A program made the position numbers and the translations under genes. Under the pieces are notes generated by a model that was given only the letters and a program-made list of their open reading frames with translations, was not told the DNA's origin and searched no databases. From a candidate division CPR2 bacterium GW2011_GWC2_39_10 (GTDB taxonomy: Bacteria; Patescibacteriota; CPR2): a stretch of 52,250 nucleotides of DNA. The DNA is taken from positions 1 through 52,250 of the forward strand of contig LBVV01000007.1 in the NCBI GenBank assembly GCA_000993275.1, read 5' to 3'. This document shows positions 5,723-34,327 of this stretch, piece by piece (the first letter of the stretch is position 1; each line of letters starts with the position of its first letter).

Positions 5723-7057
5723 ATGAAGAGGTATATGATTTTGGCATTAGTTTTGGCTTGTCTATTGCTCAACGGTTGCGCGTCTGTTCAAAATGATCTT
5801 AATATTTTATCCGGCGAACAAGATAAAGAGGCAAGATTAGAAGCGGCTGATCATTTGGCAAAATCGCAGGATAAAGAGGCTATCAAAAAACTAATTGAAG
5901 CGTCAAAAACTTCAGAGCTGGCAAGTCAGGGGGTTGGTGAAGTAAGAGACAGTCTAATTGCGGAGTCTTTAGTAAAAGAAACGGATCTATTAAAAACCAT
6001 AGACTGTTTGCAAGTAATTGGCGACGAGGCAAGTTACGACAAGATTTTTAGTATGATGCTTATCGCGGAAGACATCAAGGTTTTGAAAAAAATATTGGAT
6101 ATCATAACCAGTACGGACAATGATCAAGCAATTCCTTATTTGGTAGAATTTTTGAGTGTAAGTCCGGACGAAGGACTAACAACAACCGTGGAAAACATTA
6201 TCATGGCTTATGACAATAGAGCAGTCCCGTGTTTAATGCAAACTGCTAAGGATAATGTGGCAGATTCCGCCGAATTTATTAATGCAACGGATTTGCTTGC
6301 AGGCATCGGGGAGGATGCGATTCTGCCTTTGGTTGGGCAGTTGGGGGCAAGTTCGTGGGCTAAGGACATATTAATAAAGATTGGTGCTTCAACCGCTGAT
6401 TATGTCTATCCAAAAATTTGGGACAAAGATGTTCGGGTGCGGGCAGATGCGATTAAAGTATTTTCCGCCTTAACAGAAAGCGACAAGTCGTTATTTAATA
6501 AACTGACGGAAACAGATATTAAAATGCTTGTCAATTTACGAACCGAGCATAATGACAATAGCGAAGATGCATCAGCAATAGACAATTTAATACTTGGATC
6601 CGGAAGCAAAGCACTCCCGTATCTTGCCAAATACTATTTAAATCAGCCGTGGGCAGAAGCAAATATAGTAATAATAGGTTCGCCGTCTCTGCCGTATCTT
6701 GAAAAAATTGCGGCTGGTGGCAGCAATGAAACAATGTCAAAAGTTATAGGTAATATTCAGAGTATTGCTCAGTCGGATGAAAAAGCTACAAATTCGATTC
6801 TGAATATCATCAAGAATAAAAGTCTCAAGCAAATACGAAATAATTATGACTATTATATTAAACTGGGTCAGACCGGATCTGAGGGCATTTTGGCAAATGC
6901 ACTGTATAAATACGGCAACGCAACAATGTGTGTAGATTATTTAAATTGCGGTAACGATATATTATATAAGGCTGGCGAGCGTTGGGCCACAAGTCATGGT
7001 TATCGTGTTCTTTCGGGGGGATCTCATTATGGTCCGAGTTGGGGTTCCGGTGTTTAA
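5723..7057 (+). CDS. HEAT-repeat lipoprotein
   Basis: A 444-aa protein starting MKRYMILALVLACLLLNGCASVQ: a lipoprotein signal with lipobox LLNGC, so Cys19 is probably lipid-modified and the protein sits on the outer face of the membrane. The rest is built from helical pairs of HEAT/PBS-lyase type (DQAIPYLVEFLSV, NRAVPCLMQTAKD, EDAILPLVGQLGA, SKALPYLAKYYL, SPSLPYLEKIA), each with the alternation of a short helix and 'aiPxLvexL'. These scaffolds usually bind other proteins. The C-terminal 25 residues (GYRVLSGGSHYGPSWGSGV) leave the repeat pattern and are Gly/Ser rich. GGAGGGGG precedes the ATG; a terminator follows the stop. No enzyme motif is visible. Confidence 0.85.
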   Translation: MKRYMILALVLACLLLNGCASVQNDLNILSGEQDKEARLEAADHLAKSQDKEAIKKLIEASKTSELASQGVGEVRDSLIAESLVKETDLLKTIDCLQVIGDEASYDKIFSMMLIAEDIKVLKKILDIITSTDNDQAIPYLVEFLSVSPDEGLTTTVENIIMAYDNRAVPCLMQTAKDNVADSAEFINATDLLAGIGEDAILPLVGQLGASSWAKDILIKIGASTADYVYPKIWDKDVRVRADAIKVFSALTESDKSLFNKLTETDIKMLVNLRTEHNDNSEDASAIDNLILGSGSKALPYLAKYYLNQPWAEANIVIIGSPSLPYLEKIAAGGSNETMSKVIGNIQSIAQSDEKATNSILNIIKNKSLKQIRNNYDYYIKLGQTGSEGILANALYKYGNATMCVDYLNCGNDILYKAGERWATSHGYRVLSGGSHYGPSWGSGV

Positions 7058-7067
7058 TCATTTTTTT

Positions 7068-7096
7068 AAGGCAAACCAAAAAGGTTTGCCTTTTTT
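7068..7096 (+). terminator. intrinsic terminator
   Basis: Stem AAGGCAAACC / GGTTTGCCTT with a 5-A loop and six T residues; ends the lipoprotein transcript. Confidence 0.9.
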
Positions 7097-7133
7097 ATAT
7101 CAAACCCTTGCTTTAATATAAAAATGAAATGTA

Positions 7134-33613: not shown

Positions 33614-33727
33614 TTGATTTTTAAATTGCAATATCTACAGCGTTAAGGTTAATAAGGAACTGATAATTAAAGACGTTTGCGTCGAAGAATATAATGAAAG
33701 AGTTTCTAAATATATAAAGGAGCGAAC

Positions 33728-33997
33728 ATTCCAAAACCATATGATATAGAATGCGAAATAATTTCAGTAAAGGGTAACTGCCGATTAGGTCACCAAGTTG
33801 GCGAAAAGTTTATAATTAAAAGCATGAAAATAGATCATCCCATTTGCACCGAACTTCTCTATAACATGATGCCTTGGATGCAAACTTTAGCCTTCGGCGG
33901 TGAGGTTCCTTGGGATGAAGATGGAGTTGTGGTCAGGATGTGCCCCGATACCGGTAATGCTGTGGAAGTTAGAATGAGAGCAATAAAGGAGGCTTAA
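33728..33997 (+). CDS. TIGR04076-like small protein with ATT start
   Basis: Absent from the ORF track because no ATG, GTG or TTG begins it. The 89-aa reading is (I)PKPYDIECEIISVKGNCRLGHQVGEKFII...CTELLYNMMPWMQTLAFGGEVPWDEDG.VVVRMCPDTGNAVEVRM. This matches the TIGR04076 family: C.GH.VGdxF, a CP-like C...LLxxMxPxL, FGGexPW and a final CPDpxN. Family members start MPKPYK..., aligned exactly with ATT-CCA-AAA-CCA-TAT. AAAGGAG lies six bases before the ATT, and an in-frame TAA lies seven codons upstream. The stop touches the ATG of the MazG-like gene. Function of the family is unknown. Confidence 0.75.
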   Translation: MPKPYDIECEIISVKGNCRLGHQVGEKFIIKSMKIDHPICTELLYNMMPWMQTLAFGGEVPWDEDGVVVRMCPDTGNAVEVRMRAIKEA

Positions 33998-34327
33998 ATG
34001 AAATTTAGTGATTTGCCAGCTTGGATTGAAAAACAAAGTGGCAGGCTCAGAGCTCAGTATCCAAATGAAGACGAAGAAAAACGAACTTACGTCCGTACAA
34101 TCAAATTAGTTGAGGAAGTTGGTGAGCTTTGCAATGAAATCCTAATTGCCGGTGATCAGCAAAGACCCTCAAAGGCAGAAAATCATGATAAAGACAATTT
34201 AAGCCATGAATTTGCCGATGTCTTAATAGTAACCTTGCTTCTCGCTAATCAGCTAGGCGTTGATGTTGAAAAAGCACTAGAATCAAAAATTGAAAAAATC
34301 AATGCTAGGTATAATGAAAATGTATGA
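33998..34327 (+). CDS. MazG-like nucleotide pyrophosphohydrolase
   Basis: 109 aa. The MazG motif EExxE...ExxD is present: KLVEEVGELCNEIL and HEFADVLIVTLLLANQLGVDVEKAL. These all-helical dimers hydrolyse nucleoside triphosphates (often non-canonical) to monophosphate and pyrophosphate, so the gene probably sanitises the nucleotide pool. Its ribosome-binding site AAAGGAGG lies inside the end of the preceding gene and the stop of that gene abuts the ATG, so the two are co-translated. Its own end overlaps the CYTH gene by 14 bases. Confidence 0.88.
   Translation: MKFSDLPAWIEKQSGRLRAQYPNEDEEKRTYVRTIKLVEEVGELCNEILIAGDQQRPSKAENHDKDNLSHEFADVLIVTLLLANQLGVDVEKALESKIEKINARYNENV

Follow-up and report, generated by a model that had tools for sequence, protein, structure and literature searches.

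The TIGR04076 gene and its neighbourhood

The window that we analysed is a stretch of 52,250 nucleotides from the candidate division CPR2 bacterium GW2011_GWC2_39_10 (contig LBVV01000007.1, positions 1 to 52,250, forward strand). It contains an intact gene of the TIGR04076 family in which ATT, led by a Shine-Dalgarno (SD) sequence, stands in the place of the start codon, and this observation was confirmed. The features of the locus are collected in Table 1. The 89-residue translation reads IPKPYDIECEIISVKGNCRLGHQVGEKF...RAIKEA and is closed by the TAA at 33995-33997. The next gene encodes a MazG-like pyrophosphohydrolase and is a probable operon partner of the TIGR04076 gene; a CYTH-domain gene comes after it. 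The TIGR04076 gene is probably the first of this transcription unit, the operon itself being putative. The TATAAT hexamer upstream is a weak candidate for a -10 box, because a good -35 hexamer is absent and TATAAT occurs here about once per 1.2 kb.

Table 1. Features at the TIGR04076 locus (window coordinates)
Feature	Position	Strand	Remarks
TATAAT, possible -10 box	33690..33695	+	About 32 nt before the ATT; good -35 hexamer absent; not in the promoter-scan output
In-frame stop TAA	33707..33709	+	Upstream limit of the gene
Shine-Dalgarno AAAGGAG	33716..33722	+	5-nt spacer CGAAC; anti-SD duplex about -8.3 kcal/mol
Proposed start codon ATT	33728..33730	+	Same register, by residue count, as the ATG of L007 (closest homologue found)
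TIGR04076 gene	33728..33997	+	89 codons plus TAA, start codon ATT; intact ORF, family profile match, coding score
Predicted N-terminal tryptic peptide of the AUU-started product			(M)PKPYDIECEIISVK, initiator Met kept or removed
First in-frame canonical start ATG	33824..33826	+	SD pairing absent (+0.8 kcal/mol); conserved GNC..GHQVGEKF part lost
MazG-like pyrophosphohydrolase gene	33998..34327	+	ATG directly after the TIGR04076 stop; SD AAAGGAGG within the 3'-terminal part of the preceding gene

By DNA comparison the segment 31000-38300 of the window is variable: no DNA matching it was found in the congener (G001), and in a second genome of the family (G002) only scattered parts matched. In addition, we noted an open frame of 43 codons (33618-33746, plus strand) that overlaps the start of the TIGR04076 gene and holds no ATG, GTG or TTG. 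Its coding signal is mild (+6.2 over the 43 codons), and its residues 6-27 show a marginal 50% match to the C-terminus of a glutamine amidotransferase (G002:C1:174358-175116, E=0.023). On this marginal evidence the frame may be a remnant of an amidotransferase gene.

Family assignment, coding evidence and predicted fold

The initial annotation had assigned the gene to TIGR04076, and the profile search bore this out: the translation matched the NCBIfam model (TIGR04076.1) with 50.8 bits (E=1.9e-13) against a curated cut-off of 33, and the match was near full-length, covering residues 5-87 and profile positions 2-90 of 91. A search of the 89-residue translation against the Pfam profiles gave no match. 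An alignment of three sequences revealed 11 invariant columns shared with the relatives (G, C, VG, C, P, G, PW, C, V). Apart from the start codon, the 89 codons carry no lesion, and the conserved motifs are intact.

For coding potential we used a hexamer model whose training set comprised 439 genes of this genome with an aligned counterpart in a family member. The ORF scored higher than 99.3% of the shadow ORFs and higher than 18% of the real-gene windows. Codons 1-32 scored weakly, so that homology supports the reality of the N-terminal part better than composition does.

A sequence search of the solved structures with the TIGR04076 protein returned nothing useful. The AlphaFold2 model of window positions 33728-33994 (three input sequences, pLDDT 79) is similar in fold to the N-terminal domain of 2we8 and 3on5, with a Z score of 8.8 over about 80 residues, the next, unrelated rows lying at about 4; the Foldseek E value for this resemblance was 0.025. 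The entries are titled as an Rv0376c homologue and a xanthine dehydrogenase (BH1974), and we take both to be XdhC/CoxI-type proteins. We regard this predicted likeness as a lead for the TIGR04076 family and not as functional evidence. The family has not been assigned a function, and the direct biological reach of the present gene is modest.

The ATT codon and its Shine-Dalgarno sequence

The sequence around the proposed start reads TAA (33707-33709) ATA TAT AAA GGA GCG AAC ATT (33728-33730) CCA AAA CCA TAT. That ATT occupies the start position, with a stop seven codons upstream and no canonical codon in its place, had been claimed before and holds on reading the sequence: no in-frame ATG, GTG or TTG lies upstream of the ATG at 33824. 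For the same reason the standard ORF list yields just a 57-residue fragment, and gene callers restricted to these three codons are likely to report no more than this fragment; the initial annotation had foreseen that they would miss the gene. Initiation at 33824 would remove the conserved first third of the protein.

The claim of an AAAGGAG before the ATT stood as far as a good SD is concerned, although the spacer is 5 nt long and not six bases. The 3' end of the 16S rRNA of this genome is intact (CACCTCCTTTCT) and contains the anti-SD CCTCC. Among 412 starts backed by a family member's genome, whose median pairing energy was -5.8 kcal/mol, 30% were as strong as or stronger than the SD described here. 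An ATT with SD pairing of -8.3 kcal/mol or lower was found at 0.068% of the window positions, and 1.6% of the ATT triplets genome-wide were led as strongly.

Homologues and the register of the start

We searched 59 relatives, 379 genomes of the phylum, genome contigs, plasmids, phages and viral contigs for orthologues, and only distant relatives were recovered (L003/L004, L005, L006 and L007), together with one marginal match in a phage record. No orthologue was present in the congener (G001) or in one other member of the family (G002), and across the phylum the distribution of the gene is patchy (4 of 379 genomes). In one relative (L006, genome G043) it is broken by a stop. A further relative (L005, positions 703-1779, genome G186) encodes a protein of 358 amino acids that matches TIGR04076 below the cut-off and by eye seems to hold several units of this kind; its gene comes after one resembling the C-terminus of a radical SAM protein.

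The closest homologue found, L007 on a Patescibacteria contig, begins MSFSKVIAEIVKIEGGRCSFGHQVGEKF. Exactly 20 residues precede GHQVGEKF both in this protein and in the window gene, and the ATG of L007 is thus in gapless register with the ATT at 33728. This register is a residue count, since the multiple alignment puts gaps in the poorly conserved N-terminal stretch, and it is exact in this one homologue; the others start further upstream or downstream, L003 for example with an ATG further upstream, following a tRNA gene. The three closest relatives checked that have a readable N-terminus all start with ATG. The expectation that the family begins MPKPYK was not upheld within the phylum, where L007 begins MSFSK and L003 MKDYYNY; agreement is confined to where the protein starts, and to L007.

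These data bear on the possibility that the gene starts elsewhere, either through a frameshift or because the upstream frame at 33618-33746 provides the start or is coupled to it. In favour of this, the frame is open, has a mild coding signal and is similar in part to an amidotransferase C-terminus. However, it has no canonical start of its own and is preceded by a stop, the amidotransferase match is marginal, and L007 begins at the same residue as the window gene, so that an N-terminal extension is unneeded. We consider this explanation very improbable.

AUN starts of infC in the genome and its class

The initial annotation had likened the ATT start to those of infC and pcnB, and the comparison proved apt, because the infC gene of this very genome has an SD-led ATA start. 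This gene (L134, C12:6387-6890, minus strand) begins AAAGGAG-TACTCAC-ATA-AAA, and no ATG, GTG or TTG was found near its N-terminus. The infC genes of the congener (G001) and of the family member G002 also have an SD-led ATA. The comparison set consisted of L134 and L135-L150. Of the 15 infC genes of the class that were examined, 14 carry an SD-led ATA or ATT at the expected place without a better canonical start, and one carries TTG. In L138 there is in addition a GTG close by, and L137 and L143 have a short SD spacer. More distant relatives show mixed starts, several of them without a recognisable SD. Starts of the AUN kind are well established for infC, examples being AUU in E. coli, AUC in Streptomyces (both PMC5472188) and AUA in S. 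aureus (PMC13009471). Since infC has AUN starts in this genome and in its class, the ribosomes of the lineage very probably initiate at SD-led AUN codons.

Other genes without a canonical start

When the ORFs of this genome were matched to those of G002 (647 pairs), infC alone stood out as a clear gene lacking a canonical start. When 959 coding-like ORFs over about 1.03 Mb were scanned, seven had an SD-led AUN or CTG and no canonical start near the onset of coding, and of these infC was the only convincing one. The scan passed over ORFs with a canonical start as far as 15 codons beyond the onset of coding; because of this tolerance the present gene would not be flagged, and a small number of comparable genes may have escaped as well. 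The further ORFs without a canonical start that were inspected looked like frameshifts or short spurious frames, or had a canonical start further in.

In the comparison with G002 the LysM/CHAP gene L053 (G000:C21, about 5850-7100) also had no canonical start, and its only nearby ATG lies in another frame before a T6A8 run; the A8 run together with this ATG just upstream suggests a frameshift, slippage or error. In L031/L032 (G000:C10:28354-31225), L030 (G000:C9:38548-39535) and an ORF on the minus strand of G000:C6 (36983-37475), the N-terminus seemingly lies in another frame. Among these three coding loci are a glycosyltransferase and an ABC ATPase, and all three seem to reflect frameshift mutations or assembly errors.

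The genome is a draft of 34 contigs, and breaks of this kind, seen in a handful of genes, indicate that errors or decay exist; the true base at 33730 could be a G. In an assembled consensus, however, substitution errors are rare, and this one would need to fall on precisely that position. We judge a sequencing or consensus error to be improbable.

Functional start or recent start loss

A second way of reading the ATT is that an ancestral ATG recently mutated and that the gene is becoming a pseudogene with little or no functional protein. In a single sequence such a start loss would look identical to a functional AUU, and the locus looks like that of an ATG gene in everything except the last base of the start codon. 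In addition, the patchy distribution of the gene makes it probably dispensable, its relative in G043 is stop-broken, and several other genes of the genome look frameshifted. Against this reading, the 89 codons carry no other lesion, and the motifs and the SD are intact. An AUU with a strong SD is moreover expected to yield some product: in S. aureus, AUU and AUA starts with a strong SD reach about 10% of the AUG level (PMC13009471). Start loss seems to us unlikely. Reconstructed switches from AUG to AUU are extremely rare (1 in 61,358; PMC5622118), a rarity that makes any real ATT less probable beforehand, be it a functional start or a recent loss.

Taken together, the sequence evidence leads us to favour, with reasonable though limited confidence, a functional AUU start of the TIGR04076 gene at 33728. 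The likelihoods attached to this start and to its three rivals are judgements. For the AUU start, the strong SD with its 5-nt spacer would position the ribosome on the codon, and fMet-tRNA would pair with it at two positions, the mismatch at the third weakening the codon as in infC. Initiation factor IF3 would then reject a large share of the AUU initiation complexes. Since IF3 would discriminate against these complexes, we infer a low rate of synthesis of the protein, with a level that rises when IF3 is scarce. The downstream MazG-like gene, with its own ATG and SD, would escape this limitation. An ATT start behind a good SD thus probably keeps the protein scarce, and by analogy this translation may be under IF3 control; the GTC start of sigR in Streptomyces is repressed by IF3 (PMC5472188). 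A stronger proposal appears doubtful, namely that selection maintains the AUU as an IF3-linked switch for low expression, acting on the leading gene of a MazG-containing operon in a Patescibacteria-type bacterium, and that this gene is the first besides infC to be so regulated in the lineage.

Comparison with known AUU-start genes

Bacterial genes with an AUU start are few, and annotation restricted to ATG, GTG and TTG misses or shortens them. An example from an uncultured lineage with small genomes, where infC also starts with AUA or AUU, would suggest IF3-controlled initiation there, and it is a practical argument for considering AUN starts in the annotation of such genomes.

The gene shares with infC an AUN start behind a strong SD and an expected sensitivity to IF3, whereas infC is universal, essential and autoregulated and the TIGR04076 gene is patchy. 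It shares with E. coli pcnB the AUU start, although the proteins are unrelated; according to Binns and Masters in 2002, this start reportedly limits the translation of pcnB, as tested experimentally. A further likeness, drawn by description, is to cvfC1 of S. aureus, which has an AUU start with a strong SD, is the first gene of its operon and reaches about 10% of AUG activity (PMC13009471). Both it and the window gene encode small proteins with conserved cysteines; in cvfC1 these form a possible zinc finger, and its start was mapped by ribosome profiling and is conserved among staphylococci. The pncA (bbe22) gene of Borrelia burgdorferi also starts with AUU, and databases list its protein truncated at the next canonical start (PMC13398362). 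The combination of AUU with a too-short annotation is as in our gene, and the full-length Borrelia protein has been purified and its structure solved (PMC13398362). Within its own family, the TIGR04076 gene encodes the whole domain, with ATT replacing the ATG of the relatives read. Judged from its sequence, it is probably one more example of the known AUU-start kind represented by infC, pcnB, S. aureus cvfC1 and Borrelia pncA.
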